Shown here: one piece after another, positions 1,256 through 18,070 of the stretch
How positions within the stretch are numbered: the first letter of the stretch is position 1
How the letters are laid out: each line of letters opens with the position of its first letter
DNA from: Bacteroidales bacterium
GTDB taxonomy: Bacteria > Bacteroidota > Bacteroidia > Bacteroidales > F082
DNA: 64,000 nt
NCBI GenBank assembly: GCA_024400395.1
Contig: JAKSMW010000001.1
Coordinates: 52,084 to 116,083, forward strand
Direction: 5' to 3'
Position numbers and translations under genes: made by a program
Notes under the pieces: generated by a model
What the model saw: only the letters and a program-made list of their open reading frames with translations
What the model was told of the DNA's origin: nothing
The model's database searches: none

Positions 1256-2746
1256 GTGAAAAATCTTTTCGCCAAATTGACACCCTTTCAGAAAGCCGAG
1301 TTTGCTTTGATGTTAATCCTGGCATTTTCAATACCGTTTTACTGGTATGTGGCGCAGATTCTTGAGATAGCACTTGTGACATGCGCCATCCTCAAAATCA
1401 TCATCCAGCAAAAATTCCAGTTCAACAAGGCCCAACTGCGATGGAAATGGGCATATATCATCTTCATGCTGACATGGTTGGCCACCCTTTGCGGGATGAT
1501 TTACACCCAAAACGCCGCGGAAGGCTGGATGGCTGTGATAAAGAAACTCGGATTCTTATTCTTCCCTCTCATTTTCCTTTTGTCGGACATGTCGTATCTC
1601 ACAAAAGACAGGATCCGCGCGGTGTTTTGCAGCCTGACAGCCGGCATCTTGGTTTTCTTCCTGACGAATGTCATCTGGGCGGCCATCGATGTGATTTTCA
1701 ACGGCTACGGCACGTCACGATTCTTCGACAAGGAACTCATGAAACTTTATTACGTCCATCATTCGTACATGTCGATGTATGCAACGTTAGCTTTCGCTTT
1801 CTGTTACATTGAGTTTTTCAATCAGAAGGAGTTGAAAGTCAGAATATCATACGTCATCGCCGAGGTGATGCTGTTCGTTTTCATAATTCTGTGCAACTCC
1901 CGCGCCGGAATAGTCGTCTTGGTTTTAGAGACAATCATCCTTTTGGCGTGGACATTTTTTGCCAAAAAAGAGAAAAAGGCAGGAGTTGTCACATGTGCGA
2001 TAATATTGGCCGCCGCCGGAGGCACGATCAAATTGCTGCCGGAAAGCATCTCAAGAATCACAGAAACGCTGAATATCATCACTTCAAAAAGCACAAACGA
2101 CAGACGACTTGTGCAATTCATCGGTTACAAACAAGTTCTGAAAGAAAACTGGTTGTTTGGCGTAGGCTCGGGCGACAAATACGATGAAATCGTAAAATCA
2201 TACAAATCACACAGAGACAACTTGGTTTCATCAATCGTACCCGTGCAAGGCGTTGACAAACAAACATTTGAACATAACAGAGACATTCTTCTTCAGGAAA
2301 TACTGACATTCACCAAACAGCCTGACGTCAGCAACTGGCATGTGCCTAACGGCTTCACCGAGAATTTCATCATGACAGATGCGGAAAGAAGATGCTGCAC
2401 GCCGGAGTCAGTCGGCAGGATGTATGTAGATTATATTTACACCACCGATGCCATCGCAAACACATTGAACACTCACAATCAATATTTTGAAACAATAATC
2501 AGCCTTGGAGTCATCGGCTTGATACTGTTGTTGGGATATTTCATCGTCCCTATTTTCATCATGATAAAAAACAGAAATTTCTCCATCATATACCTGATTT
2601 TTATTCTGATAATCAGTTTCAACGCATTTTTCGAAGCGATTTTTGAAAGACAATGCGGAATAATTTTCTTCAATTTCTTTAACATGTTGCTGTTCAGTTG
2701 GTTATTGACGAATATAGAACCGGCGGCCAAAGTCATAAAAAAATGA
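1256..2746 (+). CDS. O-antigen ligase / Wzy-type polymerase family membrane protein
   Basis: A 496-residue polytopic membrane protein starting with GTG. It has about ten hydrophobic segments and the family hallmarks: an NSRAG motif near residue 215, a large polar (probably periplasmic) loop near residues 290-390, and a conserved HNQYFE motif near residue 406 just before the last helices. Family members join undecaprenyl-linked glycans to an acceptor or polymerise repeat units at the periplasmic face. The locus also has an EpsG-like polymerase (7889), so this one may be the ligase, but sequence alone does not separate the two roles. The stop overlaps the next ATG (ATGA at 2743). Confidence 0.85.
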   Translation: MKNLFAKLTPFQKAEFALMLILAFSIPFYWYVAQILEIALVTCAILKIIIQQKFQFNKAQLRWKWAYIIFMLTWLATLCGMIYTQNAAEGWMAVIKKLGFLFFPLIFLLSDMSYLTKDRIRAVFCSLTAGILVFFLTNVIWAAIDVIFNGYGTSRFFDKELMKLYYVHHSYMSMYATLAFAFCYIEFFNQKELKVRISYVIAEVMLFVFIILCNSRAGIVVLVLETIILLAWTFFAKKEKKAGVVTCAIILAAAGGTIKLLPESISRITETLNIITSKSTNDRRLVQFIGYKQVLKENWLFGVGSGDKYDEIVKSYKSHRDNLVSSIVPVQGVDKQTFEHNRDILLQEILTFTKQPDVSNWHVPNGFTENFIMTDAERRCCTPESVGRMYVDYIYTTDAIANTLNTHNQYFETIISLGVIGLILLLGYFIVPIFIMIKNRNFSIIYLIFILIISFNAFFEAIFERQCGIIFFNFFNMLLFSWLLTNIEPAAKVIKK

Positions 2747-4422
2747 AAAATAGGACATTTGTCATCGTATTTATATTTCTGGCATGTTTCACGGCCAAGG
2801 CTCAGGAGCTTCAGATCCCGTTGAACGACGATTACGAGATTGACGTTCAGGCGGCGGCTTACAACTCCGGCTACATCTTCCACACCGCATTGCGTTCCTG
2901 GTCGGAATATCAGTTTAAAGACATCACGGATCTTGACAGCCTTGAAAATCAATACCGTTTCGACATCACGACAAAAAACAAATTCTGGAATTATGTCTGG
3001 AATTCGTTTTTGAATGATGATTTTTTTAGAGTCAAAGGGAAAGAAGATGACTTTTACATCGCCGCCAACCCGCTGATGGATTTCGAGGTCGGCGGTGACG
3101 GCACACGCACCACATGGGTGAACACACGCGGCCTTGAAATCAAGGGGACGATTGGGAAAAACTTCGCTTTCTACACCAATGTCCATGAAAATCAAGCGGT
3201 TTTCCCTGAATACATCACAAACTACATCAAAGACAAGAAAGTCATACCGGGTCAAGGCTGGGCGAGGAAATTCAAAGAGACCGGCTTCGACTACACCAAC
3301 ACACAGGCTTACATCGCATTCCGTCCCGTGAGATGGCTCGACGCCACCTTGGGCTACGGAAAGAACTTCATCGGCGACGGATACCGCTCGATGATGTTGT
3401 CTGACAACGCTTTGAGCTATCCGTATCTGAAACTCACCGCCGACTTCTGGCGGATCCAATACACCTGTCTTTACAGTCAGATGACCGACAGAAACAGGGT
3501 CTTGGCCGACAACACCTATGCGAGAAAGTTCACGGTGATACATTATCTCGACTTTGCTATTTCACGACGCCTGAACATAGGGTTTTTCGACGCTCTCGTG
3601 GCCAAGAACCAAGACTCGCTCGGAATACGCCGCGGCTTTGATTTCCAATACATCAACCCCATAATCTTCCTGCGTCCGGCGGAATATTACACCGGGACGT
3701 CGCCCGACAACTCGCTCCTTGGCATCACCGCAAGCGTCATCGTAGGAAAACACACCACCATTTACGGACAGTTCGTCCTCGACGAGATGACATTCAAGGA
3801 GTTCATCGGCGGCAAGGGTTACTATGCGAACAAACAGTCGTACCAGTTCGGAGTGAAGAGTTACAACTGCTTCAACGTCAACGGGTTGTTCCTGCAACTC
3901 GAAGGTAACATCGTGATGCCGTACATGTATTCGCACACATCACAGGGTTCGGGATGCGGTGTCGGAGAGGACAACTACGCACATTACAACGAGCCGCTCG
4001 CGCATCCGTGGGGCGCAAACCTCTGGGAATGCATCGGACGCGCACAATACAACTGGAAACGTCTTTATTTCCAGTACAAAATCAATTTCGGACAGTACGG
4101 CGACGACATCAAGAACGCCGACGGTACCATCGACAACTACGGACACAACGTCTATCTCGACTATCACGACCACGTACACATCCTCGACCCGGAAGAAGAC
4201 CCGAACGGATTCTACGGACATTATCTCCTCACGGGAAGGAAAACGACATTGATAATGAATGACTTCACGGTTTCTTATTTGATAAACCCGGCGTACAACC
4301 TCAACGTTTTCGTTGACCTGACGCAACGTCATCTCGCCCCGGAAGGACTTGACAATCAAGACAATTTCATCTTCAGCTTCGGTTTGAGGACAAGTATCGG
4401 CAGAAAATACTACGACTTTTAA
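2743..4422 (+). CDS. Outer-membrane beta-barrel protein, RemB/Wzi-like
   Basis: Starts at the ATG overlapping the previous stop; this gives a clean signal peptide (MKNRTFVIVFIFLACFTAKAQ, cut after AQA-like small residues), whereas an in-frame start at 2698 would not. The mature part is rich in alternating aromatic/polar stretches and contains the pattern GKNFIGDGYRSMMLSDNA near residues 203-220, which resembles RemB of gliding bacteroidetes and Wzi-type capsule-assembly barrels. It ends in aromatic Phe, as many outer-membrane barrels do. In this locus it probably helps anchor or surface-assemble the polysaccharide. The assignment to RemB versus Wzi is by recall of motif, not by search. Confidence 0.65.
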   Translation: MKNRTFVIVFIFLACFTAKAQELQIPLNDDYEIDVQAAAYNSGYIFHTALRSWSEYQFKDITDLDSLENQYRFDITTKNKFWNYVWNSFLNDDFFRVKGKEDDFYIAANPLMDFEVGGDGTRTTWVNTRGLEIKGTIGKNFAFYTNVHENQAVFPEYITNYIKDKKVIPGQGWARKFKETGFDYTNTQAYIAFRPVRWLDATLGYGKNFIGDGYRSMMLSDNALSYPYLKLTADFWRIQYTCLYSQMTDRNRVLADNTYARKFTVIHYLDFAISRRLNIGFFDALVAKNQDSLGIRRGFDFQYINPIIFLRPAEYYTGTSPDNSLLGITASVIVGKHTTIYGQFVLDEMTFKEFIGGKGYYANKQSYQFGVKSYNCFNVNGLFLQLEGNIVMPYMYSHTSQGSGCGVGEDNYAHYNEPLAHPWGANLWECIGRAQYNWKRLYFQYKINFGQYGDDIKNADGTIDNYGHNVYLDYHDHVHILDPEEDPNGFYGHYLLTGRKTTLIMNDFTVSYLINPAYNLNVFVDLTQRHLAPEGLDNQDNFIFSFGLRTSIGRKYYDF

Positions 4423-4494
4423 CCTACTTGCACAGATTCCGCAAATCAACGCAGAAGAAAGATGAAATCCGCATAATCCGCAGGACAAACAAAA

Positions 4495-5808
4495 ATGAAA
4501 CTCTCTGACAACGCCATAAAAATCACGAAAAACGTCGGCTGGGCGGTCGCCGGAAAGACGGTGAGTCTTCTCGGAAGCCTTCTCGTCGGCATTCTCGTGG
4601 CGCGTTACCTCGGCCCGGAGCAATACGGCCTGATGAACTATGTCATCAGCTATGTCTGTATCTTTCAAGTGTTTGCGACATTCGGTCTCGACAGCATCGA
4701 GATCCGCGAGGAGTCAAGGCATCCCGAAGAAAGAGACGTGATCATCGGGACGGCGTTCATGATAAAAATCGTTTTTGCCGTCATCACTATGGCAGCCGTG
4801 GCGGTCTCGGTGATGATAACCGAAACAGATTCGTTCACGAGATGGATGATAATGCTGTATTCGCTCTCCATTGTGCTTAACAGCTTGAATGTCATCAGGA
4901 ATCATTTCACGTCGTTGGTGTGGAACGAATACGTCGTGAAGACTGAAATCTCCAGGACGGTCATCGGTGCGCTTATCAAGATCGGGCTGCTGTTTGCGAA
5001 GGCGGGTCTCGGCTGGTTCATCGCCGTTTACACCTTCGATTTCGTCCTGCTCGCCAGCGGCTATTGCACGTCATACCGGCTGAAAATCGACAGGATGAAG
5101 CTGTGGCGGTTTGATGTCAAATGGGCGAAGTACCTTGTGGCGCAGTCGTTTCCGTTGATGCTGACGGGCGCGGCGGTGATGATTTACCAGCGCATCGACC
5201 AGGTGATGATCGGGAAGATGATCGACTCGGCTTCGGTCGGGCAGTTCTCGGTGGCGAGCAAATTTGTCGAGGTGCTTATCTTCGTCCCGACAATCATAGC
5301 GCAGACCGTCGCCCCGATTCTGATACGGACAAGAGAGAAAGACGATTACGAATACAGGAAGAAATCGCAGGTTTTCATGAACGTCACCATCTGGGGAAGT
5401 TTCTTCATGGCGGCGGTCACGAGCCTGATTTCATATTATCTCGTCATCTGGACCTTCGGGAAGGCGTATCTTCCGGCGGTCTTGATCTTGCAGATTCTTT
5501 CGTTCAAAGTCGTGAGCGTCGCCCTGTCGAACACCGCCGGGCAGCTGCTCGTCATCGAAGGTTTGCAGAAATACGCCATTCTTCGTGACGCATTCGGCTG
5601 TGTTATCTGTGTGATTTTCAACTTGTTGTTGATTCCACGATTCGGCACCGCCGGAGCCGCCGCCGTCGCAATACTTTCAAATCTCTCGGCAGGTTACATC
5701 GCCGACCTCTTCATCCCGCAATACCGTCATCTTTTCAGGATGCAGTCGAAGGCGTTGCTGCTTGGGTGGAAAGACATCTTCAAGATAAAATCATTGTTAA
5801 AATCTTGA
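4495..5808 (+). CDS. Polysaccharide flippase, Wzx/MurJ-like (MOP superfamily)
   Basis: A 437-residue protein with about 12-14 hydrophobic helices. The N-terminus (NVGWAVAGKTVSLLGSLLVG followed by RYLGPEQYGLMNY) is the classical Polysacc_synt signature of O-unit flippases. The substrate would be the undecaprenyl-diphosphate-linked repeat unit assembled by the glycosyltransferases downstream. Internal YQRIDQVMIGKM near residue 230 is also typical of the family. There is a 72-bp gap after the barrel gene and only 6 bp before the next glycosyltransferase, consistent with one operon. Confidence 0.92.
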   Translation: MKLSDNAIKITKNVGWAVAGKTVSLLGSLLVGILVARYLGPEQYGLMNYVISYVCIFQVFATFGLDSIEIREESRHPEERDVIIGTAFMIKIVFAVITMAAVAVSVMITETDSFTRWMIMLYSLSIVLNSLNVIRNHFTSLVWNEYVVKTEISRTVIGALIKIGLLFAKAGLGWFIAVYTFDFVLLASGYCTSYRLKIDRMKLWRFDVKWAKYLVAQSFPLMLTGAAVMIYQRIDQVMIGKMIDSASVGQFSVASKFVEVLIFVPTIIAQTVAPILIRTREKDDYEYRKKSQVFMNVTIWGSFFMAAVTSLISYYLVIWTFGKAYLPAVLILQILSFKVVSVALSNTAGQLLVIEGLQKYAILRDAFGCVICVIFNLLLIPRFGTAGAAAVAILSNLSAGYIADLFIPQYRHLFRMQSKALLLGWKDIFKIKSLLKS

Positions 5809-5814
5809 TTTTCA

Positions 5815-6705
5815 ATGAAAAGACTTTCAATAATCATTGTCACATACAACTCGGAGAAAGACATTTTCGACTGCCTGAAAGCCGTTTTCAAGCACAACGA
5901 CCTCGGTGATGAACTGGAGGTTATAGTCGTTGACAATGCAAGCGCGGGTTTCGAGACGATGCGGAAGGAGATTGAAGACGTTTACGACGAAAAAATTGTT
6001 GTTGTCAGTAACAGCAAAAACGGCGGCTACGGGCAAGGTAACAACGTCGGAATAAGACTTTCTTCATCGGATAAGTTCTTGATAATGAATCCGGATGTGA
6101 GAATCATCATGCCGATGTTCTCTAAAATCGTTGAAACTTTAAATGACGGAAACGTCGCACTCTGCGGATTTACGTCGATGGAAAACGAGAGTCTAAGAAA
6201 CAGCTCGTTTTATTACACCCGTACGACGAGTGCGTTCCGAAAAGTGTTTTTCCGCAAGAAACTGCAAACCGATGATTTTCAATATAAAAGAATGTTTTTA
6301 TCGGGAGCGTGCTTTGCGATGAACAAAGACGTTTTCGAAAAAATCGGGATGTTTGACGAGAACATTTTCCTTTATGGCGAGGAAAATGACATTCATTTCC
6401 GTCTGAGAAAAATGTTCCCGGAGAAAAAAATGGTTTTCCTCAAGGAGTTGAGATACGTTCACCCGACCGCCAACGAGCGCGACAAGGGGAAGGAATACCG
6501 GCATTCGATGAAGTCGGCGGCTTATTTCTACAAGAAGAACCAGATGCCGATGAAGTCGCTGTACAGGAACGAGATGAATCAGATGATTTTCAAGGCCTTG
6601 GCGTTGTGCATCGGGCATCCGTCGAGGATTAGAGAGGCGATTGAAAGATTCCGCGAGCAGAAAAATTTAGTCGAGATGACGTTCAACGAAATAAACGGCC
6701 GTTAG
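5815..6705 (+). CDS. Glycosyltransferase family 2 (rhamnosyltransferase-like)
   Basis: A 296-residue GT-A fold enzyme. Visible are the nucleotide-binding start SIIIVTYNSEKD, VVDNAS near residue 40, the metal-binding region with MNPDVRI near residue 90, and the acceptor-side block with GMFDENIFLYGEENDIHFR near residues 178-196. This layout matches the Bacteroidota GT2 group often annotated as rhamnosyl- or galactofuranosyltransferase. It acts at the cytoplasmic face of the inner membrane on the growing lipid-linked unit. Donor and linkage cannot be read from sequence. It starts 6 bp after the flippase stop. Confidence 0.88.
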   Translation: MKRLSIIIVTYNSEKDIFDCLKAVFKHNDLGDELEVIVVDNASAGFETMRKEIEDVYDEKIVVVSNSKNGGYGQGNNVGIRLSSSDKFLIMNPDVRIIMPMFSKIVETLNDGNVALCGFTSMENESLRNSSFYYTRTTSAFRKVFFRKKLQTDDFQYKRMFLSGACFAMNKDVFEKIGMFDENIFLYGEENDIHFRLRKMFPEKKMVFLKELRYVHPTANERDKGKEYRHSMKSAAYFYKKNQMPMKSLYRNEMNQMIFKALALCIGHPSRIREAIERFREQKNLVEMTFNEINGR

Positions 6706-6708
6706 GTT

Positions 6709-7878
6709 ATGAAAGTCGTATATGTACTGCATTGCACAACAAGTGCGAGTGGAGCCACAAAATCATTCCGCAACATGCTTAATGGGTTGATGGCCAGCGA
6801 TATAGAACCTTTAGTCGTTGTACCCGACGGCTATGATTTCTGCAAGACATTGCAAGATGAAAGAATAAGAACCCTGATTCTCAAATATCGTTGGGCCACG
6901 TATCCGCCATTGAGGAATCTCAAGGAAATCATATTTTTCATTCCGAAACTCATCGCAAGAATCTGTGTCAACAACATAGCTGCACGGAAACTTCGCAAGG
7001 AGGCCGAAGATTTCGGTGCTGACTTGATACACACAAACGTCAGCGTGATTAGTATCGGGATGAAAGCCGCAAGAAAACTCGGCATTCCGCACGTCACGCA
7101 CATCAGGGAATACGGCGACAAGGACTTCAACATGCACGTTCTCCCGTCAAAAAGTGTCTATTTTAAAAATTTCGGTGCGGAAAAATCATATACAATTTGT
7201 ATAACAAAAGACATAGCGAAATATTATCATCTTGATAATCAGAGAAATTCGAGGGTCATTTATAACGGAATACTTCATTCTTCCGATGTGATTCTTGAGT
7301 CGCGGAAGGAAGATTATTTCCTTTTTGCAGGCCGGCTTGAGGAATCCAAAGGCATCACTGACCTCATTGAGACATACGGGGAATTATGCCGCTGTAGGAA
7401 AGATGCGTTCCCGTTGCTGGTTGCGGGAGCCGCAAATAAAAAAGAGTACTTGGACTATCTGAACGGTGTTGTCGCATCACTTGACATCGCCAGCAAGGTG
7501 AAATTCCTCGGAAACCGTGATGACGTGTTTGAGTTGATGTCGAAGGCGGCGGCGTTGATAGTTCCGTCACGCTCGGAAGCCTTCGGCAGAATCACAGCCG
7601 AGGCCATGTTTGCCGGCTGTTTAGTAATCGGGAAAGACATCGCCGGCACAAAAGAGCAATTCGACAACGGCTTGTATTTCACACATGACGAAATCGGGCT
7701 GCGTTATTACGACAGCACACAGCTCATCAACCTGATGTGTGAGGTAATGGACAACGGACCCGAAGCCTATCTCCCGATGATAAAAAGGGCACAAGAAACC
7801 GTGACCTCGCTTTATACCATCAATCAGAACACAGCACGCATAATTGATTTTTACAAAGAAATAGAACACAAGAATTAG
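6709..7878 (+). CDS. Glycosyltransferase family 4 (GT-B fold)
   Basis: A 389-residue retaining glycosyltransferase. The N-terminal domain begins VVYVLHCTTSASGATKS, a DxD-free GT-B start. The C-terminal Glycos_transf_1 domain shows FAGRLEESKGI near residue 206 and the donor-binding EX7E motif within SEAFGRITAEAMFAG near residues 287-301. Only 3 bp separate it from the preceding GT2, and 10 bp from the fused polymerase that follows. It probably adds one sugar to the repeat unit; which sugar is unknown. Confidence 0.9.
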   Translation: MKVVYVLHCTTSASGATKSFRNMLNGLMASDIEPLVVVPDGYDFCKTLQDERIRTLILKYRWATYPPLRNLKEIIFFIPKLIARICVNNIAARKLRKEAEDFGADLIHTNVSVISIGMKAARKLGIPHVTHIREYGDKDFNMHVLPSKSVYFKNFGAEKSYTICITKDIAKYYHLDNQRNSRVIYNGILHSSDVILESRKEDYFLFAGRLEESKGITDLIETYGELCRCRKDAFPLLVAGAANKKEYLDYLNGVVASLDIASKVKFLGNRDDVFELMSKAAALIVPSRSEAFGRITAEAMFAGCLVIGKDIAGTKEQFDNGLYFTHDEIGLRYYDSTQLINLMCEVMDNGPEAYLPMIKRAQETVTSLYTINQNTARIIDFYKEIEHKN

Positions 7879-7888
7879 GAGTAACATT

Positions 7889-10741
7889 ATGGTTTATTTA
7901 GTAGCATTAGTCCTTATTTTAATCCCATTCATCAGATTTGACATTTTGAAAAAAGGCGGGAAGGAGCGACTCTGGTATTACATCTGCCTGTCGGCGTTGA
8001 CTCTCATCGCCGGCCTGCGTTACAGGGTCGGCGGCGACACTCTCGGCTATATGGTTCATTTCGAGACATATCCAGACATCGCTGGAATTTTCAGATTCAA
8101 CTTTGAAGCAGCTTATTACATGCCATTGTGGTATGTATATAATTCAATCTTCAAATCTTTGGGTGACAGCTTCTACGTCTTCCAGATTGTGCAGGCATTC
8201 CTCGTGAACGCGGCGTTTTTCAGGTTTTTCAAGCGTTATTCCAAACATTTCTTTGCGGTTCTGCTTGTATATTTCGTCGGCTATTATCTTTTCTACAACA
8301 CCGAAATTTTGCGCTCCGCGTTATGCGTCGCCTTGTTCCTCGAAGCCTATCCTTTCCTCGAAAAGAAAAAATATCACTGGTATTTCCTGCTTTCGCTGGT
8401 GGCGGTGGGATTCCACATCTCCGCTGTATTCATTTTCATAGTTCCTCTTTTCAGACTTATAAAAAAAGAAAATTTCATCTTCTGCATTGTGTCGGGCGTT
8501 GTCATCTTGCTGATGGCCAGCCTCATCAATGTTAAGTCGATAATAGAATCAGTTGACATACAGGCAAACACAGGTTTCAAGTTTTACATAGTGTCGAGGC
8601 TTGACTCTTACGCCAAAAGTATTGCGCCGATAACCAAATACGTTCTTTTCGACAAGCTGACCATCTGCATCCCGATTTTGGGTGTGATGCTTTTGAGGCG
8701 CATCTTCGGGTATGACAACGACCGTCGTTTCGGCGTCGCCGCAATGGTAATGGTCATCATACAGTTCGCGACTCTTTTCCACAACGTGATAGGACGTTTA
8801 AACGACTACCTGATTCCTTTCATGCTCGTTTACCTTGTAAACACATTGCTCGACAACAGGGACGACATCGCAAAAAACAAATACAGCATAACGTTAGCTG
8901 CATTGTCGGCTATCTCATTCTTTGGTGTTGTGACGGTAAAATATTGCAGAAGCCAGACGGCGGTGTGTGTAGGGTCACACATCTACGACAGATACATTCC
9001 GTACAGTTCTGTTTTCAACGAACAGAAACACATCAAACGAGAGATTATCGTTGACACGCAGTATAACAACACGCCGGAGACAACCAAAGACGAACGTGAA
9101 CAGGTCTTTTTTGAAGATTATGAAATCAAAGCGGAGAAGGTCTGGACAAATGACACCATAATTTCCGACTCGTGTATAGTTGAAAAAGGGAACAGATTGA
9201 TTATCAAGGACTGCACCGTGCGTGTCAAGCCCGACTGTCGGATAATAGTACATCGTGGCGGTGTGCTCATCATCGACAACGCCATCATCGACGCCGACTT
9301 CTCCGACGGAGTCAGGCAATGGCAGGGCATTCAGGTTCACGGCAGCAACTCCCTTAATCAGTTCAATGTCAACGGCATATACAAGCAGGGTTACGTCGAA
9401 CTGCATAACGCAGTCATCAAGAACGCCATCATCGGCGTTGACCTCGGTGACACGGAAGACTGGTTCAAGAAAGGCGGCATCATACACGCCGAAAACTCGT
9501 CATTCATCAACAACACAAGAGCCATACACGCCGAAAACTACAGGAATGTCAACCCGAACACATTCCAAACCGCCGACTACAATGCATGGTTCGACAACTG
9601 CGTCTTCGAGATCAACGAAGACTACATCGGAACGGAAATGTTCTACAAGCACGTTGACCTCTACGAGACGCGCGGCTTGAAATTCAACGACTGCAGATTC
9701 GTGCAGACAGTCAAGAATGAGAAGATCTCCAACTTCTCCGTCGGCATAGAAGCCAATGACGGCGACTTCGTGCTGAGAAACGGCTACTTCAGCGGATTCC
9801 ACCGTGCAATAGCAGCCATCTGCGTCAACAACAATATCATAAGCGAACCGAAAATATTCAATTCCGTCTTCAAAGAAAACAACATCTGCATTGAGCTTAA
9901 AAATTGTCAGAAAGCAGTGGTGATATCATCGGAATTCCATATCGACAAGAGTGTTTATCAAAACAGCGGCATCAGCATCATCGGACTCACCGATCTCATC
10001 GTTGAAAACAACACATTCAACGCGCTCAACAGGGAATATGACAATGAATGCTTCGCCATTTACTCTACACATATCAGCGAAAAAGTCAATTTCAAGAACA
10101 ATATCTTCAACGGCATTCCTGACTTCAACCAAGCGAACCATGTCGATGTCGGTGACGTGTCGCTCATCGGCACTATAAAGAGATTCGACGACGGCAGCGA
10201 GGGCGTTGTCTTCTACGATGACGGTAACGGCCACGGTCTCGTGGTGAGCATGACGGAGACGACAGCTTACTGGAGCAAGTCGGCGACGGATATCACCGAA
10301 TTGGAAAACGACCCCGGTGATGAAGTTAAGGTCCCGGATGAGACGACAGAGGACGGTTTCGTCATCGAGTTCGACAACACCATCGTCGCGCGAGGCCTTG
10401 ATTTCAGACGGGGCGCGCACGAGACCGACATCATCATGTCGCGTTTGTGCGATGAAGCGACGGCGGCGGCCATATCCAGAGAACTTGGTGATGAATGGTA
10501 TCTACCAAGCATAGGTGAAATGGCGAGACTGCTCACCACGGCAAACAAAGGCCTTGGCAAAATCGGTCCCATAAGCGAGGCCCTGTTCAAAAACGGCGGT
10601 ACCGTCATCTCAAGCAACAAATATTGGACAAGCACCGAAAGAAACGCCGAAGAAGCCTGGTTCATAGAGACAAAGACAAAAGGTATCATGGCGCAGGAAA
10701 AATTCTATATCGCAAAAGTCAGGGCAATCAGGGCATTTTAA
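7889..10741 (+). CDS. EpsG-like polysaccharide polymerase fused to a right-handed beta-helix and a DUF1566-like domain
   Basis: A single 950-residue frame with three parts. Residues 1 to about 375 are a complete EpsG/Wzy-type membrane protein: about ten helices, the diagnostic RYRVGGDTLGY near residue 50, and the usual family end YIPYSSVF near 372. Residues about 400-755 are a repetitive, Asn/Ile/Val-rich region of short strands with recurrent N-N-x-F and WQGIQV-type rungs, as in right-handed parallel beta-helices of secreted Bacteroidota proteins. Residues about 756-950 match the DUF1566-like C-terminal module: DDGSEGVVFYDD, EWYLPSIGEM, SSNKYWTSTE and the terminal KVRAIRAF. EpsG proteins normally stop after the membrane part. 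I infer that the helix sits in the periplasm and handles the polymer (modifying, cutting or measuring it), but no catalytic site is evident. Genes on both sides are glycosyltransferases, so the protein belongs to the locus. Confidence 0.8.
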   Translation: MVYLVALVLILIPFIRFDILKKGGKERLWYYICLSALTLIAGLRYRVGGDTLGYMVHFETYPDIAGIFRFNFEAAYYMPLWYVYNSIFKSLGDSFYVFQIVQAFLVNAAFFRFFKRYSKHFFAVLLVYFVGYYLFYNTEILRSALCVALFLEAYPFLEKKKYHWYFLLSLVAVGFHISAVFIFIVPLFRLIKKENFIFCIVSGVVILLMASLINVKSIIESVDIQANTGFKFYIVSRLDSYAKSIAPITKYVLFDKLTICIPILGVMLLRRIFGYDNDRRFGVAAMVMVIIQFATLFHNVIGRLNDYLIPFMLVYLVNTLLDNRDDIAKNKYSITLAALSAISFFGVVTVKYCRSQTAVCVGSHIYDRYIPYSSVFNEQKHIKREIIVDTQYNNTPETTKDEREQVFFEDYEIKAEKVWTNDTIISDSCIVEKGNRLIIKDCTVRVKPDCRIIVHRGGVLIIDNAIIDADFSDGVRQWQGIQVHGSNSLNQFNVNGIYKQGYVELHNAVIKNAIIGVDLGDTEDWFKKGGIIHAENSSFINNTRAIHAENYRNVNPNTFQTADYNAWFDNCVFEINEDYIGTEMFYKHVDLYETRGLKFNDCRFVQTVKNEKISNFSVGIEANDGDFVLRNGYFSGFHRAIAAICVNNNIISEPKIFNSVFKENNICIELKNCQKAVVISSEFHIDKSVYQNSGISIIGLTDLIVENNTFNALNREYDNECFAIYSTHISEKVNFKNNIFNGIPDFNQANHVDVGDVSLIGTIKRFDDGSEGVVFYDDGNGHGLVVSMTETTAYWSKSATDITELENDPGDEVKVPDETTEDGFVIEFDNTIVARGLDFRRGAHETDIIMSRLCDEATAAAISRELGDEWYLPSIGEMARLLTTANKGLGKIGPISEALFKNGGTVISSNKYWTSTERNAEEAWFIETKTKGIMAQEKFYIAKVRAIRAF

Positions 10742-10748
10742 CATTATT

Positions 10749-11921
10749 ATGAGCAACAGCACAAAAGCGCGGGTGATTGCATATTATCTCCCGCAGTTCT
10801 ACCCGATTCCAGAAAACGACAAGTTCTGGGGAAAAGGTTTCACCGAATGGACCAACGTGGCGAAAGCGAAACCGCTTTTCAGAAACCACAACCAGCCGAG
10901 AGTGCCGGCAGACCTCGGTTTCTACGACCTCCGTCTCCCGGAAGTGCGCGAGGCGCAGGCGGAATTGGCGAGAGAGGCGGGCATCGAAGGCTTCTGCTAC
11001 TGGCATTACTGGTTCGGCAACGGCAAACGTCTCCTTGACCGACCCTTCGACGAAGTGCTGAACAGCGGCAACCCCGACTTCCCGTTCTGCCTCTGCTGGG
11101 CGAACCACGACTGGACAACGAAAACATGGCAGCAGGCCGACAGAAAAACGACAGTCACCATGATAGCCGAACAGACATACCCCGGCGACGAAGATTACAT
11201 CAATCATTTCAACTATGTGCTGAAAGCATTCAAAGACAGACGTTACATCACCGTTGACGGCAAGCCGGTCTTCGCCATCTTCGACCCGTACAAATTCCAG
11301 GACGTGAAACATTTCATCGAACTGTGGAGAAAACTCGCTGAAGAAAACGGACTGAAAGGCATTTATTTCATCGCTCTCGCCAACAACACCAGCACCATAC
11401 GCCGGAAAGAAGACGGCACGCTCGAAAAGAACATCATGCCCGACCTCAAAAGCAGCAAGAACGTATATGAAAACATCCTTTCCATCGGATTTGACGCCAT
11501 AAACTCCTTCGGCAAACTGCGTTCGGAGATGATATACAGCGGGAAATACCGTCGTCTGGCACAGAAAAAACTCAGGGAGTTCTTCCCTTTCATGAAACCT
11601 AATGTCTTCAAATACGAGAAAAGCATAAAATATTTCTTCGCCCCGGAAGACAAATGGGAGAACATCTTCCCCACAGTCCTGCCGCAATGGGACAAAAGCC
11701 CGCGTGTCGGGACATGCGACGACGTTTACATCAACGCCACGCCGGAAAACTTCCGCAAACATCTCGTTGACGCCTTGAATATCGTATCAGAAAAGCAAGA
11801 CGAACACAAAATCATTTTCCTCCGTTCATGGAACGAATGGGGCGAAGGCAACTACATCGAACCGGACCTCAAGTACGGTCACGGATTTCTTGACGTTTTG
11901 CACGACGAACTGCTTGGATGA
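10749..11921 (+). CDS. WbsX-family polysaccharide biosynthesis protein (GH99-like)
   Basis: A 390-residue protein with the WbsX/GH99-like signature from its first residues: AYYLPQFYPIPENDKFWGKG, then FTEWTNV, then FCYWHYWF near residue 82 and LCWANHDWT near residue 115; the C-terminus has RSWNEWGEGNYIEPD. Such proteins occur in O-antigen and capsule loci and are treated as glycosyltransferases or glycan-acting enzymes with a TIM-barrel fold related to endo-mannosidases; the reaction is not established. It starts 7 bp after the fused polymerase and ends 1 bp before the next start codon. Confidence 0.85.
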   Translation: MSNSTKARVIAYYLPQFYPIPENDKFWGKGFTEWTNVAKAKPLFRNHNQPRVPADLGFYDLRLPEVREAQAELAREAGIEGFCYWHYWFGNGKRLLDRPFDEVLNSGNPDFPFCLCWANHDWTTKTWQQADRKTTVTMIAEQTYPGDEDYINHFNYVLKAFKDRRYITVDGKPVFAIFDPYKFQDVKHFIELWRKLAEENGLKGIYFIALANNTSTIRRKEDGTLEKNIMPDLKSSKNVYENILSIGFDAINSFGKLRSEMIYSGKYRRLAQKKLREFFPFMKPNVFKYEKSIKYFFAPEDKWENIFPTVLPQWDKSPRVGTCDDVYINATPENFRKHLVDALNIVSEKQDEHKIIFLRSWNEWGEGNYIEPDLKYGHGFLDVLHDELLG

Positions 11922-11922
11922 A

Positions 11923-12735
11923 ATGAAAGAAAACGAAATCGACATATCAGTAATCATACCTTCATATAAACCCAAAAGTTATATCTGGCAGTGCCTGGAT
12001 TCTTTGAAAAACCAGACTTTTGAGAAAGAAAGATTTGAAATCATCTTGATTCTCAACGGATGCAAAGAGCCTTTTTATTCTGATACTGTCAATTTTGTAA
12101 ATGAAAATTTTGAAGGTTATGCAGTAAAAGTGTTGCAGACCGACACCCCAGGTGTTTCAAACGCCCGCAACATCGGCATCGACAACGCAAGAGGACGTTA
12201 CATCACTTTCCTCGATGACGACGATTATCTTTCGGAGTGTTTTTTGGAAAAGATGTTTCCGATTGCCGAAAAAGGCATCATCCCGATGAGCAACATGACT
12301 TCGTTTTCGGACAACGACAACAGTGTGCAGCCGTATTATGTTACGGAGGCGTTCAGACATCTATATAAAAAAGGTGTGGTTTCGCCTTTGAACGCACGTT
12401 CTTATCTTTCGGTATGCGTCGCAAAACTGCTGCCAGCAGACCTCATCAGAACGAATAGATTCAACACAAGTTTCAAAATCGCCGAAGACTGCGTGTTCAT
12501 GTTCACCTTGTCGAAAGACATCAAGGCGATGCAATGCTCTGACGAAGACGCAATATACTACAGAAGAATAAGGGAAAGCTCCGCCCTGACATCGCATCGT
12601 TCACGTAAGACAAAGATTGTCAGCGGCTTGAAGTTGATTTTGCAATACAACAAAATTTATTTCGGGCATCCTTTCAGATACAATTTCATATTGTTCCTGA
12701 CGCGCATCGCCGGGACGATAAAGAACATTTTTTGA
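11923..12735 (+). CDS. Glycosyltransferase family 2
   Basis: GT-A enzyme of 270 residues. The ATG at 11923 is preferred over an in-frame ATG at 11890 because it places the start just after the WbsX stop and directly before the conserved first strand (DISVIIPSYKPKSY). The donor motif is clear: GVSNARNIGIDNARGRYITF followed by LDDDDYL near residue 95. The C-terminal third ends in a short hydrophobic stretch before the stop. It probably adds a sugar to the lipid-linked unit; the donor is unknown. Confidence 0.88.
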   Translation: MKENEIDISVIIPSYKPKSYIWQCLDSLKNQTFEKERFEIILILNGCKEPFYSDTVNFVNENFEGYAVKVLQTDTPGVSNARNIGIDNARGRYITFLDDDDYLSECFLEKMFPIAEKGIIPMSNMTSFSDNDNSVQPYYVTEAFRHLYKKGVVSPLNARSYLSVCVAKLLPADLIRTNRFNTSFKIAEDCVFMFTLSKDIKAMQCSDEDAIYYRRIRESSALTSHRSRKTKIVSGLKLILQYNKIYFGHPFRYNFILFLTRIAGTIKNIF

Positions 12736-12738
12736 TTC

Positions 12739-13932
12739 ATGAAAACACTTATTGTTTCATTTTATTACATGCCTGAAGTCGGAGCCGCACCGTCGCGTAT
12801 CACAAACTTGGCCCGCGGTCTCAAAGACAGCGGAATCGACGTTGATGTGCTGACATGTATGCCTAATTACCCGAAAGGCAGGATTTTTGAAGGATACAGA
12901 CACAGATTCTCAATGAAGGAAAACATTGACGGGATTGACGTATATCGTTACTGGACTTACGCCTGCAACAGCAAAAACCCGATAAAGAGAGCGATTGCGA
13001 TGCTTTCTTTCGCCTTCACGATGTGGTTTTTCGCTTTCAAGTTCCGCCTCGTAAAAAGCTACGACAGAATCATAATACAGTCGCCGCCGCTTCTTGTGGC
13101 TTCGTCGGCAATGTTTCTTTTCAAGAAGATAAAAAGGAAAAACGTCATACTCAACGTCTCCGACCTGTGGCCTATTTCGGCGGTCGAACTCGGTGTGATG
13201 AAAGAAGGCGGCAGGTCGCACCGTTTCATGCTCAGGCACGAGCGTTTCATCTACAAAAACGCCGACGCGGTGATGGGACAGTCGCAGGAAATCCTCAACC
13301 ACGTGCTTGAGATGTTCCCGGAGAAGAAGACGTTCCTTTACAGAAACCTCCAGAAAAACGGCGATTCGGCACAGCAGGATTTCGGCGGCAGAAGAAAAAA
13401 CGGACTTAAAATCGTTTACGCCGGTCTGTTCGGCGTGGCGCAAGATTTGTTATCGTTAATCAAAAACATTGACTTCAAACAACTTAACGTGGAGTTTCAT
13501 CTTTACGGCGGTGGCAACCAACTTGATGAAATCCTGAAATACATCGGCGACGGCGAGAAAAATATTTTCTATCACGGTTATCTTCAGAAGAACGAACTCG
13601 CCGCCGAACTGAAGAAATATGACGTGTCTATAATCCCGCTGATGACCTCAATCAAAGGCGCGGTGCCGTCAAAGATTTTTGACATTTTGCCGCACGGTAT
13701 CCCGGTGCTGTTCAGCGGCGACAGAGAAGGCGCCGACATCGTGAATGATTTCGGAATCGGACTGTCATCAAAACCCGCCGACTACAAAACACTTGAACAA
13801 AATATTCGGACATTCGCAGAAATGCCTGATAATGAATATAATAAATATGTCGAAAACTGCATTTCCGCTTCAAACGACGCTTTCTCCTTCAAAAAGCAAA
13901 TGATGCGTTTCGCAAACTTTATAAAAGAATAA
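12739..13932 (+). CDS. Glycosyltransferase family 4, WbuB-like
   Basis: A 397-residue GT-B protein. The start FYYMPEVGAAPSRITNLA followed by VLTCMPNYPKGRIF is the signature of the WbuB group, which in enterobacterial loci transfers N-acetyl-L-fucosamine. Here the locus encodes L-fucose activation (Fkp), so a fucose-type donor is a reasonable but unproven idea. The C-terminal domain has VYAGLFGVAQDL near residue 227 and PSKIFDILPHGIPVLFSG near residue 310, where the family's donor-binding Glu is replaced by the D/G-rich variant usual for this group. It starts 3 bp after the preceding gene. Confidence 0.85.
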   Translation: MKTLIVSFYYMPEVGAAPSRITNLARGLKDSGIDVDVLTCMPNYPKGRIFEGYRHRFSMKENIDGIDVYRYWTYACNSKNPIKRAIAMLSFAFTMWFFAFKFRLVKSYDRIIIQSPPLLVASSAMFLFKKIKRKNVILNVSDLWPISAVELGVMKEGGRSHRFMLRHERFIYKNADAVMGQSQEILNHVLEMFPEKKTFLYRNLQKNGDSAQQDFGGRRKNGLKIVYAGLFGVAQDLLSLIKNIDFKQLNVEFHLYGGGNQLDEILKYIGDGEKNIFYHGYLQKNELAAELKKYDVSIIPLMTSIKGAVPSKIFDILPHGIPVLFSGDREGADIVNDFGIGLSSKPADYKTLEQNIRTFAEMPDNEYNKYVENCISASNDAFSFKKQMMRFANFIKE

Positions 13933-13953: not shown

Positions 13954-15324
13954 ATGTCAAAACCAGCAAAAAAATCACTGAAATATCCGTTCCGCAGTGT
14001 ATGTAACATCATCACGACATTGTTTGTGATGCTTTCTTTTGCATACATTTGGTACAACAACCTTAACCCGTTACAGCTCAAGAGCTTCCTTATGAAAGGC
14101 AACTTCCTCGTGATAGGCATCTATATGTTTTTCTTCCTTCTTTTCATGAGTGTCTTCGGCGGCTTCAAACTCGGTATTTACACCAAGACGAACATCATCA
14201 TATCGCAGACAATCGCACTTTTTTGCGCATCATTCATGCAAATCCTGTTTGTGATCATGCTCGTCGGCAAAGTGGGTCATATTCCGGCTATCTTATTGAG
14301 TTTCTTAAAGATGTATGTCGTGCAGATCGTATTTGTCTTTTTCTTCACAATGGTCGCGATGACCATCTATCACAAATTTTTCAATCCCTATGAGCTGCTT
14401 CACATCTATGCAGATGAGAATGACAACATTTCAAAACGCTTTATGAATCAGCATCTTAACTATGTGATAAAGGACAAGGTCAGCTGTTTTGACACTATGG
14501 AGAACATCATCAGTCACATCGACAACTTCGACCTCGTGATGATTGACGACATCCCGACCGACAAGCGGGAGATCATCCAGAACATTTGTTATTCAAAGGA
14601 GAAGAAGGTTTATTTCGTGCCATCGATAACTGACATTATAAACAAAAACTCGAAATATTCGCATCTGCTTGACACGCCTTTGTATTTTTACAAGAGCAAT
14701 GCCATGTCTGTTTTTGAAAAAATAGTGAAACGAATCGGCGACATTTTCATTTCTACTATTGGAATCATCATCACCTCGCCGATAATGATTGCCATTGCCG
14801 CCGCCATATTCTCTTACGACAAAGGGCCTGTTTTTTACAAACAAACGCGTTACACCAAAGGCGGCAAGATATTCAAAATCATCAAGTTCCGCAGCATGAT
14901 TCAAAATGCCGAAAACGACGGCAAGGCGCGTCTCGCCTCTGAAAACGACGACCGCATCACACCTGTGGGACGTTTCATCCGCGCTTGCAGAATCGATGAG
15001 CTACCGCAGTTTTTCAACATACTGAAAGGCGACATGAGCATTGTCGGCCCGCGCCCGGAACGCCCGGAAATCGCCGATGAATACTGCAAACAACTGCCTG
15101 AATTCAAATACAGACTCTATGTGAAAGCAGGGTTGACAGGCTACGCCCAAGTTTACGGGAAATACAACACCACTTTCGTTGACAAACTGAAGCTCGACAT
15201 GATTTATGTCGGAAATGCATCCATTCTCCTTGATATTCAATTGATTCTTCTCACCTTGAAAGTGATTTTCCAGAAAGAAAGCACCGAAGGCCTCGAAGAA
15301 GGCAAGACAATCGCAACAAAATAA
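13954..15324 (+). CDS. Polyprenyl glycosylphosphotransferase (large, multi-helix priming enzyme)
   Basis: A 456-residue membrane protein: four or five N-terminal helices (residues about 15-140), a soluble middle domain, one helix near 262-290, and the C-terminal bacterial sugar transferase domain. That domain shows KIIKFRSM, RIDELPQFFNILKGDMSIVG and PRPERPE near residues 305-370, then GLTGYAQVYGKY. Family members transfer a hexose- or HexNAc-1-phosphate to undecaprenyl phosphate, the first step of repeat-unit assembly. A second, minimal priming transferase lies at 20109. This one sits 21 bp after the WbuB-like gene and 13 bp before fkp. Confidence 0.92.
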   Translation: MSKPAKKSLKYPFRSVCNIITTLFVMLSFAYIWYNNLNPLQLKSFLMKGNFLVIGIYMFFFLLFMSVFGGFKLGIYTKTNIIISQTIALFCASFMQILFVIMLVGKVGHIPAILLSFLKMYVVQIVFVFFFTMVAMTIYHKFFNPYELLHIYADENDNISKRFMNQHLNYVIKDKVSCFDTMENIISHIDNFDLVMIDDIPTDKREIIQNICYSKEKKVYFVPSITDIINKNSKYSHLLDTPLYFYKSNAMSVFEKIVKRIGDIFISTIGIIITSPIMIAIAAAIFSYDKGPVFYKQTRYTKGGKIFKIIKFRSMIQNAENDGKARLASENDDRITPVGRFIRACRIDELPQFFNILKGDMSIVGPRPERPEIADEYCKQLPEFKYRLYVKAGLTGYAQVYGKYNTTFVDKLKLDMIYVGNASILLDIQLILLTLKVIFQKESTEGLEEGKTIATK

Positions 15325-15337
15325 TAATTTTCTGATT

Positions 15338-18070
15338 ATGAAGATTTTACTCTCACTTCCACCGAATTTAGTCAATTCTTTCCATGATATAACGGGATTG
15401 CCGGAAGACGAATATTTCTGCACCTCCGACCCGACAGGCCACCGCATCGGGTCCGGCGGCGGCTCCACGTGGATTTTGGAAAAATTTAACATCTCCGGCA
15501 AGAAAATCCTCATCCACGCCGGCGGCGAGTCACGGCGGCTGCCTTCATATTCCACTTCAGGCAAGATCCTCACCCCTATTCCGGTGTTCAGATGGGCACG
15601 CGGACAGAAAATCGGGCAGGATTTGTTGTCACTGCAACTGCCTCTGTACAAGAAGATTATGGAGAAAACGCCATCGACCGTCAACACTCTGATCGCCAGC
15701 GGCGACGTGTTCATCCGCACCGACGAACAGCTGCGCGAAATCCCGGAAGCCGACGTGATTTGCTACGGAGTCTGGGTGAATCCGTCGATAGCAAAGAACC
15801 ACGGAGTGTTCGCGATGCGACGTGACAACCCCGCCGAACTCGACAAGATGCTCCAGAAACCCACTCTCGAACAAATCGACGAACTCGTCAAGACACACGT
15901 CTATATGATGGACATCGGACTGTGGCTGTTGAGCGACAAAGCTGTGGAGATGCTCGAAAAACGCTCTAAAGACGAGAACGGAGACATCAAATATTACGAC
16001 CTTTACTCCGACTTCGGACGTTGCCTCGGAAACAATCCTGAACTCGAAGATGCAGAACTCAACGAATTGACAGTCAAGATTATGCCATTGGACGGCGGCG
16101 AGTTCTACCATTACGGCACGAGCCGCGAACTCGTCTCTTCGACACTCGCCGTACAGAACCTCGTCAACGACCAAAACAAAATCTTCCATCATAAAGTGAA
16201 GCCGCATCCCGCGATCTTCACGCAAAACAGCGTCACGGAAATAAATTTCACCCCGGAGAACTCCGAAATCTGGATTGAAAACAGCCATGTCGGGAAAAAG
16301 TGGAACATCACGAGACAAAACATCATCACCGGCGTGCCTGAAAATCAATGGGATGTGACGTTAAACCCCGGCGACTGCCTCGACATCACCCCTGTCGGTG
16401 AGAAGTCGTTCGTGGCTCGCCCCTACGATTTCAACGCGCCTTTCAAATTCGTCAACGTGGCTGAAGGCACCGACCCGTTCAAGGCGGCGACATTTCCGGT
16501 TTTTGACGACATCGAGAAAATGGGTGAATACGTGAAAAGCATCTTTGACATCGAAAACTCAAAACTTCACTCTTCACTCTCAAAACTTCACACTGAATAT
16601 ATTTCAGCTGAAGAAATCTTGAACAAGGCCAACCTGAAACGCCTTTTCGCACAACGCGAGACGTTCATGCAGAAGAACCTTCCGCTTCTCGAAGCGAATC
16701 ACAGCAGAAGCGTTTTTTATAATGTGGATTTAGATGACATCGCTTCAAAATATGTGAGATTCGGCATCGAGTCACCCGCCGAACTCGCTGAAAACGATGC
16801 TGTTATGAAAAGAATTCATAACAGCAGTCTTCGTGCCAGAATCAAGCAGTATAACGGTGTGGATTTCAAGGCGGAGGAATCTAAGGCTTTTCGTCTTCTT
16901 CAGGAAGGCTTGACCGCTTCGGCTTACAATGACCTTCAGATGCCGCGGTGCGATGTCTATTCCGACCAGATTGTGTGGAGTCGCTCGCCGGTGCGCATCG
17001 ACCTCGCCGGCGGCTGGACCGACACGCCCCCGTATTGCCTCATGGAAGGCGGCTCCGTGGTGAACATCGCCATCGAACTCAACGGCCAGCAACCAATCCA
17101 GGTTTACGTAAAACCAACAACCGAATTTCATATAATATTGAGATCCATCGATTTAGGTGCTTATGAAGAGGTCACGACATTTGAAGATGTTTGTGATTTC
17201 AAGAAAGTCGGCTCGCCTTTCAGCATACCTAAAGCGGCGTTGGCATTGGCCGGTTTCGTGCCGCGTTTCTGCCAGAAAAAATACGAAACGCTTGAGCAAC
17301 AACTCAAAGACTTCGGCTGCGGAATGGAGATCACGTTGCTGTCGGCAATCCCCGCCGGAAGCGGTCTCGGCACCTCGTCAGTGCTCTCGTCAACAGTACT
17401 CGCCGCCATATCCGATTTCTGCAAACTCGGATGGGACAAAACCGTCATCTGCAACAAGACCTTGATTTTAGAGCAGTTACTGACGACAGGCGGCGGCTGG
17501 CAAGACCAATACGGCGGCGTTTTTCACGGAGTGAAACTGTTGGAAACCAAGACCGGTTTCGAACAGACACCTATTATTAAATGGCTGCCCGACTACCTTT
17601 TCACAAAACCCGAATACAAACCGTGCCATCTCTTATATTATACGGGAATCACCCGCACTGCAAAAAACATACTCTCAGAAATCGTCAGGAAAATGTTCCT
17701 CAACGAAACCGAGCATTTGGCACTTCTCGCCGACATGAAACATCACGCCGATGAGATGTTTGAAACCGTTCAACGTAATGATTATCAAAACTATGGCAAG
17801 ATGGTCGCCAAAACTTGGGAACAAAACAAACGCCTCGACAGCGGCACGAACCCGGCCGAAGTGGAAGCCATCTTGAAGAAAATCGACGATTTCTGCCTCG
17901 GTTACAAACTCCCCGGAGCCGGCGGCGGCGGCTTCATCTACATGGTGGCGAAAGACCACTTCGCGGCGGCGCAAATCAAGAAGATTTTGACGGAAAACCC
18001 CGCAAACAACAAGGCACGGTTTGTCGAAATGTCGCTCTCCGAAACAGGTCTGCAAACCACAAGAAGCTAA
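15338..18070 (+). CDS. fkp: Bifunctional L-fucokinase / GDP-L-fucose pyrophosphorylase
   Basis: At 910 residues it has the size and layout of Bacteroides Fkp. The start LLSLPPNLVNSFHDI and the nucleotide-binding FCTSDPTGHRIGSGGGST (near residue 27-44) belong to the guanylyltransferase part, followed by HAGGESRRLPSYS. The C-terminal GHMP kinase begins WSRSPVRIDLAGGWTDTPP near residue 548, has its ATP loop IPAGSGLGTSS near 671, and KLPGAGGGGF near 857. Fkp phosphorylates free L-fucose and converts it to GDP-L-fucose, so the cell can put host-derived fucose on its capsule and glycoproteins. No Gmd/Fcl de novo genes are present, so fucose in this locus would come from salvage. It is followed by short repeats and a mutarotase gene. 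Confidence 0.95.
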   Translation: MKILLSLPPNLVNSFHDITGLPEDEYFCTSDPTGHRIGSGGGSTWILEKFNISGKKILIHAGGESRRLPSYSTSGKILTPIPVFRWARGQKIGQDLLSLQLPLYKKIMEKTPSTVNTLIASGDVFIRTDEQLREIPEADVICYGVWVNPSIAKNHGVFAMRRDNPAELDKMLQKPTLEQIDELVKTHVYMMDIGLWLLSDKAVEMLEKRSKDENGDIKYYDLYSDFGRCLGNNPELEDAELNELTVKIMPLDGGEFYHYGTSRELVSSTLAVQNLVNDQNKIFHHKVKPHPAIFTQNSVTEINFTPENSEIWIENSHVGKKWNITRQNIITGVPENQWDVTLNPGDCLDITPVGEKSFVARPYDFNAPFKFVNVAEGTDPFKAATFPVFDDIEKMGEYVKSIFDIENSKLHSSLSKLHTEYISAEEILNKANLKRLFAQRETFMQKNLPLLEANHSRSVFYNVDLDDIASKYVRFGIESPAELAENDAVMKRIHNSSLRARIKQYNGVDFKAEESKAFRLLQEGLTASAYNDLQMPRCDVYSDQIVWSRSPVRIDLAGGWTDTPPYCLMEGGSVVNIAIELNGQQPIQVYVKPTTEFHIILRSIDLGAYEEVTTFEDVCDFKKVGSPFSIPKAALALAGFVPRFCQKKYETLEQQLKDFGCGMEITLLSAIPAGSGLGTSSVLSSTVLAAISDFCKLGWDKTVICNKTLILEQLLTTGGGWQDQYGGVFHGVKLLETKTGFEQTPIIKWLPDYLFTKPEYKPCHLLYYTGITRTAKNILSEIVRKMFLNETEHLALLADMKHHADEMFETVQRNDYQNYGKMVAKTWEQNKRLDSGTNPAEVEAILKKIDDFCLGYKLPGAGGGGFIYMVAKDHFAAAQIKKILTENPANNKARFVEMSLSETGLQTTRS

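Follow-up and report, generated by a model that had tools for sequence, protein, structure and literature searches.

A fused EpsG-family polymerase carrying a beta-helix and a DUF1566-like module in a glycosyltransferase operon of gut Bacteroidales

Why would a polysaccharide polymerase carry, in the same reading frame, a beta-helix and a lectin-like domain? The question is raised by a gene at 7889-10741 (forward strand) of the stretch analysed here, 64,000 nucleotides of the Bacteroidales contig JAKSMW010000001.1 (hereafter the window). Open reading frame analysis of the window gives one ATG-started frame of 950 amino acids without internal stop, directly preceded by an AGGAG-like ribosome site seen by eye. 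Residues 29-372 of its product match the Pfam family EpsG (PF14897, E 4.3e-34, 118.6 bits vs. a curated cut-off of 30.1), the middle part has the fold of a right-handed beta-helix (a Pfam scan at E 0.1 gave no match there), and PF07603 (Lcl_C) matches residues 865-948 with E 4e-6 to 1.6e-7 at 27-32 bits, below its curated cut-off of 34.9. This architecture of three modules in 950 residues is near certain; an initial annotation had proposed it, and frame, profiles and relatives bear it out. That annotation as a whole holds in part: the architecture and the glycan-operon setting stand, whereas the polymerase end at about residue 375 needs correction and the statement that there is no catalytic triad was premature.

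The joined protein is genuine and maintained by selection. The window genome is a draft of 61 contigs, and yet an assembly or binning artefact has, in our judgement, virtually no probability: the same join is present in four further assemblies with largely syntenic operons, and assembly error was rejected, as the join recurs at 75-76% protein identity in other assemblies. Among 99 genomes of the genus, full-length matches occur in four (the window's own, G049 at 100%, G044 at 76% and G002 at 75% protein identity), and a further genome, G043, matches residues 1-751 only, i.e., polymerase and helix, at 67% identity. The frames at the loci of G049, G044 and G002 (L041, L042 and L043, respectively) are intact, and all five known copies are open; in the same order, the records of these three are JAUNNU010000010.1, JAKSMX010000025.1 (horse faeces) and JAGHUX010000023.1 (Candidatus Limimorpha caballi). 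The initial annotation had considered a random join unlikely and had pointed to other Bacteroidales loci as the place to look for the same architecture, and the three full-length copies and the polymerase-helix copy found in the genus agree with it on that score. Pairwise dN/dS ratios (near-identical L041 excluded, and no ratio taken where synonymous sites were saturated) are 0.07-0.14 for EpsG, 0.06-0.11 for the helix and 0.14-0.17 for Lcl_C; with helix synonymous sites close to saturated they are rough, yet far below 1. When the window or G043 is one member of the pair, conservation is lowest, among the four segments, in the tail and linker (residues 376-412).

Divergence is also comparatively high at the fused gene. 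In the three non-identical genomes the helix retains 58-73% identity with a synonymous divergence (pS) of 0.68-0.76, vs. 90-93% and 0.27-0.31 for Wzx, and against L055, L056 and L057 the synonymous divergence of helix plus Lcl_C (9125-10738) is clearly above that of Wzx, WbsX and the initiating transferase. About as much divergence as in the helix is seen in one glycosyltransferase and, in G002 and G043, in the ligase. Such high divergence at the fused gene may reflect exchange by recombination, or diversification.

As far as searched, the fusion is confined to one genus of uncultured gut Bacteroidales. The EpsG profile (E 1e-5 in the genus, E 1e-8 in the order and phylum samples, which share some genomes; the order sample holds few genus members) found 22 rows in 21 of the 99 genus genomes, five with frames of 761-970 amino acids and the other 17 with frames of 342-474. 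The order sample gave 69 rows in 57 of 393 genomes, with frames other than the window's at 307-429 amino acids bar one of 570 (G508:C271), which was rejected as a second fused EpsG, its added length lying upstream of the EpsG start. Across the phylum, 68 rows from 60 of the 395 sampled genomes have, the window aside, frames of 192-448 amino acids. Since neither Bacteroidota sample (393 and 395 genomes) gave a further fused EpsG, the fusion is known, within these samples, from one genus only. Among the papers listed on Wzy or EpsG, and among those on Wzy_C with tetratricopeptide repeats, none describes such a fusion in its title or abstract opening, with subscription journals thinly covered; PMC10920833 uses none of the words fused, fusion and EpsG.

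Where the polymerase ends is best read from genome G045 (L058), in which the same place in the operon is occupied by a stand-alone EpsG, ~403 residues long and 41% identical. Its end, ...VPYSSYLNPQKDADRELYRQLEMNCNNASKDEVRY, aligns with ...IPYSSVFNEQKHIKREIIVDTQYNNTPETTKDER; from there the fused protein continues into the helix. Because this stand-alone tail runs to the equivalent of about residue 403, we place the join near residues 403-412 (window ~9095-9124), later than the initially proposed ~375, and since the G045 polymerase stops where the helix begins, the helix was appended to a complete, intact polymerase. At the other boundary, the G043 protein stops at the equivalent of residue 751, where the Lcl_C module begins. 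Between this early stop and WbsX, G043 keeps GCATTTTAA (L057:9583-9641), which resembles the final codons and stop of the window gene. This remnant may be a deletion scar of Lcl_C, and with it a loss of Lcl_C in G043 would fit better than a later gain. A stepwise gain, helix first and then Lcl_C, is possible, though within the fused group the inner branches of the tree lack firm support (96/78 and 90/61). Duplicates of a cargo locus were taken out before this tree was built, and the residue counts below do not include L041, which is nearly identical to the window.

Homology and family profiles place the helix in a family whose other members belong to surface proteins exported by type IX secretion. 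Relatives within the genus share 30-48% identity over the helix, and of 11 that were read by eye, 10 have a signal-peptide-like start and 10 a sorting-type tail. The one relative scanned, L060 (1161 amino acids, 3038-6523), combines a Peptidase_M43 match of M43 type, the same beta-helix and a Por_Secre_tail. In the aligned family, seven of 29 members match PF13229 (Beta_helix), five of 29 match NosD, and in one of 29 there is an additional match to the SUEL lectin domain (E 0.0012). Most likely, then, the helix was captured from a type IX secretion surface protein. A phage source was also considered: 43 pattern-matching stretches in viral contigs yielded no confirmed helix, and one of 63 candidate stretches for Lcl_C was confirmed. 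The fused protein shows no match to PF18962 (Por_Secre_tail) at E 0.1 and hence no type IX sorting domain, so the secretion signal itself appears not to have been captured.

What the helix has kept is a set of outward polar residues. In the fused proteins the coil residues Q482, D518, H547 and D590, together with K587 and H588, are invariant in all four counted, and the 27 cargo-type sequences have E/Q482 in 27, D/E518 in 20, H547 in 25, K587 in 24, H588 in 27 and D590 in 24. Polar residues of the later coils (621, 642, 669 and 696) are not conserved in the cargo, and a patch that spans just four successive coils resembles a site for binding or catalysis. The register of this ladder was deduced from the G-I-x-V strand pattern, with model strands at 480-484 and 514-518. 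The initial annotation saw no catalytic triad; given that the helix keeps the polar ladder of its cargo relatives, that statement was premature. The fused helices also carry invariant acidic residues (E549, E621 and E669) near the positions of aromatic residues that are common in the cargo and that they lack, and with aromatics missing but acidic residues invariant, the helix face appears re-tuned rather than decayed. Fused-specific polar positions lie on the helix face in six of 16 cases (hypergeometric P 0.003), a post hoc count from one clade that is not used as evidence.

On which side of the membrane would these modules lie? Twelve hydrophobic segments were assigned by hand from the hydropathy profile of the window protein, and the short loops hold 18 K+R on the predicted inner side vs. 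three on the outer side, a bias with the same direction in all 10 aligned sequences (loops of more than 40 residues were excluded from the totals, and L047 and L059 were dropped for want of a query match at E 1e-3). With this predicted N-out topology, the conserved motifs near R44-G49-D50, R142, H176-x-S178 and R303, which align with those of relatives, face outward, as expected of a polymerase acting at the periplasmic face. The C-terminus of the fused polymerase is likewise predicted to be periplasmic; a topology prediction, here from hand-set segments and loop charges, was a check that the initial annotation had named. Past residue 400 the peak 19-residue hydropathy is 1.07, at residue 461, which is not below that of some segments taken as membrane helices; since it falls within the first coils, which the secreted cargo has too, we assign it to the core of the helix. 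The polymerase is predicted to act on lipid-linked repeat units, and the operon context agrees.

The C-terminal module is related to the DUF1566 domain. Residues 751-950 share 39-43% identity with the C-terminal part of four genus proteins of 352-574 amino acids, three of which begin with a signal-peptide-like stretch; in the one relative scanned, the Lcl_C and CsgG/LpoB matches are all below cut-off. A profile of seven members finds the structures 4eps (E 1e-7) and 8q4e (E 1e-4), the latter of which, like 8qk8, we take to be the C-terminal domain of Legionella Lcl, and the NCBIfam adhesin_Lcl match of the C-terminal part is far below its cut-off. According to the available portion of PMC11162425, Lcl binds sulphated glycosaminoglycans via a positively charged surface, and its trimer is built of monomers that resemble C-type lectin-like domains without the expected carbohydrate-binding motifs; the paper gives DUF1566 domains no clear general function.

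We tentatively favour, at somewhat less than even chances, a role in which the periplasmic module holds the nascent O-antigen-like chain at the polymerase exit. The gene product would be the Wzy-type polymerase of a Wzx/Wzy O-antigen-like pathway, and its C-terminus would carry into the periplasm a beta-helix rod, joined in all known copies but one of the five by a lectin-like DUF1566 module. Thus tethered, the two domains would bind the polysaccharide leaving the active site via the conserved helix face, and we infer that such binding would hold the chain in register, raise processivity, or steer the polymer to the ligase or an export step. Wzz is the periplasmic partner that acts on Wzy chain length, and the module would act alongside it: Wzz domains score above cut-off in all 10 genomes tested, encoded outside the operon, all five fusion genomes have a Wzz-sized frame of 312-352 amino acids, and G045 (62% complete) has the domain only in a Wzc-sized frame of 837 amino acids. 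Retention of Wzz-domain proteins weakens the reading of the module as a mere substitute for this length regulator.

Several points weigh against chain holding, among them this same presence of Wzz. The AF2 model of the whole protein is of no use (mean pLDDT 33.5), and in that of the helix, confidence is largely limited to residues ~415-475. Once the two long outer loops are included, the charge bias behind the predicted topology falls to 18 inner vs. 11 outer. Aromatic residues often stack on sugars, and the fused helices lack the cargo aromatics W484 (25 of 27), W520 (20 of 27) and Y623 (25 of 27). Both added parts are net acidic: the helix has 32 K+R vs. 42 D+E, and the DUF1566-like module 21 vs. 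35, whereas Lcl binds by a positive surface, which speaks against an Lcl-like binding of an anionic polymer. Finally, the fused polymerase of G043 has no Lcl_C module at all.

The polar ladder could also belong to an enzyme. Beta-helix glycan enzymes keep their catalytic residues as outward polar residues on successive coils, and it is possible, if somewhat improbable, that the helix is an epimerase, esterase or lyase that modifies or cuts the chain during synthesis, with an active site of D518/H547/D590 assisted by Q482 and K587-H588. The conservation of these positions in cargo and fused proteins favours this, as does the low-confidence model of residues 405-756, which aligned best to right-handed beta-helices: AlgG came first in the structural comparison, pectate lyases and phage tailspikes next, and the top Foldseek row is the polysaccharide lyase RbmB. 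However, fold similarity of this kind does not establish a function, TM is near 0.2 across the Foldseek rows, the non-enzyme pertactin ranks equally high in the comparison, the register of the ladder is deduced from pattern, no Pfam beta-helix enzyme family matches at E 0.1, and a profile search of solved structures with the helix family gave no relative at E 1. The DPHD motif of AlgG is absent from the window protein, which in this respect differs from AlgG-type epimerases. A fuller version, in which the polymerase is fused to its own tailoring enzyme, the helix site modifying or cutting each repeat while the DUF1566 module holds the chain, seems rather unlikely to us; if true, a single polypeptide would link chain growth to chain modification.

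Roles that involve no glycan at all fare less well. It is unlikely that the module is a protein adaptor, docking the polymerase to a periplasmic or outer-membrane partner such as the ligase, an export complex, the operon's own outer-membrane-like protein or the type IX machinery. In favour of an adaptor, the helix is related to type IX cargo, 67 Por_Secre_tail matches occur in the host, and the ligase and a signal-peptide-bearing, barrel-like protein of 574 amino acids (as judged by eye) are encoded in the same operon. Against it, the fused protein lacks the sorting-tail match, and G044, which has the full fusion, shows no 574-amino-acid protein between ligase and Wzx. An accidental, tolerated fusion with no role in polymerisation, or a C-terminal part that is cut off and acts separately, we consider quite improbable. 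Such a fusion would fit the occurrence in one genus among the samples searched, the place of the helix among the more divergent parts of the locus and the missing Lcl_C of G043; against it stand dN/dS ratios well below 1 for each module (with helix synonymous sites near saturation) and the open frames of all five copies. Taken together, handling of the nascent chain beside the polymerase, by binding or else by chemistry, would be the likeliest role of the periplasmic module.

The operon (Table 1) encodes a Wzx/Wzy pathway whose product is probably an O-antigen-like polymer, and its ligase, flippase, glycosyltransferase and initiating transferase matches confirm the placement of the fusion within a glycosyltransferase operon. 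The operons of the fused genomes are largely syntenic with that of the window, with a few differences in gene content. Although neither Pfam nor NCBIfam gave a match to the 574-amino-acid protein at E 0.1, it shares 85-86% identity with its counterparts in G002, G043 and G045. Directly upstream of the polymerase, G043 (L057:6671-7282) and G002 (L056:10049-10660) have an extra gene of 203 amino acids that the window does not; given the hexapeptide transferase repeats of the L057 copy, acetylation of the repeat unit may be different. G002 gave no match to the WcaI-like transferase.

Table 1 Features of the fused gene and its operon in the window
Feature	Position	Strand	Evidence
Fused gene, EpsG polymerase + beta-helix + DUF1566/Lcl_C-like module, 950 aa	7889..10741	+	Frame, Pfam, same architecture in L041, L042, L043
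EpsG-family polymerase, residues 1-375, 12 hand-set transmembrane helices, predicted N-out/C-out	7889..9013	+	PF14897, hydropathy, positive-inside count
Polymerase tail and linker, residues 376-412	9014..9124	+	Alignment with stand-alone G045
Right-handed beta-helix, residues 413-750, kin to type IX secretion cargo helices	9125..10138	+	Homology, family profiles, model
Outward polar ladder Q482 (9332-9334), D518 (9440-9442), H547 (9527-9529), K587-H588-x-D590 (9647-9658)	9332..9658	+	Column counts
DUF1566/Lcl_C-like module, residues 751-950	10139..10738	+	PF07603 at 865-948; absent from G043 protein
O-antigen ligase-like protein, Wzy_C	1256..2746	+	PF04932
574-aa protein, signal-peptide-like start, outer-membrane-barrel look (by eye)	2698-4422
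Wzx-type flippase	4495..5808	+	PF01943
Family 2 glycosyltransferase	5815..6705	+	PF00535
Group 1 (family 4-type) glycosyltransferase, directly upstream of fused gene	6709..7878	+	PF00534, PF13439
WbsX-like protein, directly downstream of fused gene	10749..11921	+	PF14307, E 3.8e-132
Family 2 glycosyltransferase	11890..12735	+	PF00535
WcaI-like glycosyltransferase	12739..13932	+
Initiating sugar-phosphate transferase, Bac_transf	13954..15324	+	PF02397
Fucose kinase/pyrophosphorylase-like protein	15338..18070	+	PF07959, PF00288

How Wzy polymerases hold, measure and hand over their chains is poorly understood, and a 2025 review (PMC12004945), in the portion available, states that no structure of any Wzy orthologue has been determined. 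A soluble, separately expressible domain at the probable periplasmic end would offer a handle on Wzy chain handling, with natural controls at one operon position: a stand-alone polymerase (G045), polymerase plus helix (G043) and the full form (the window, G049, G044 and G002).

Set against known systems, residues 1-375 agree with the EpsG family in profile match, helix pattern and the conserved motifs of stand-alone relatives; the difference is the ~550 residues that follow the polymerase, whereas the 17 other genus frames end within the lengths given above. Type IX cargo such as L060 has the same conserved polar and cysteine positions as the fused helix, and differs in having a signal peptide and a sorting tail, while the fused form is borne by a polymerase and lacks W484, W520 and Y623. 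AlgG resembles the window helix as a periplasmic right-handed beta-helix, with no sequence relation found by profile, and it is a separate soluble protein of a synthase-dependent pathway, unlike Wzx/Wzy. The Wzz co-polymerase has no match in the fused protein and is encoded by separate Wzz-domain genes in fused and unfused genomes alike. The C-terminal DUF1566 domain of Legionella Lcl is matched by the window module in the profile search (8q4e), with the Lcl_C and adhesin_Lcl scores below cut-off; Lcl itself is a secreted trimeric collagen-like adhesin, in the available portion of PMC11162425, whereas here the module ends an inner-membrane polymerase.

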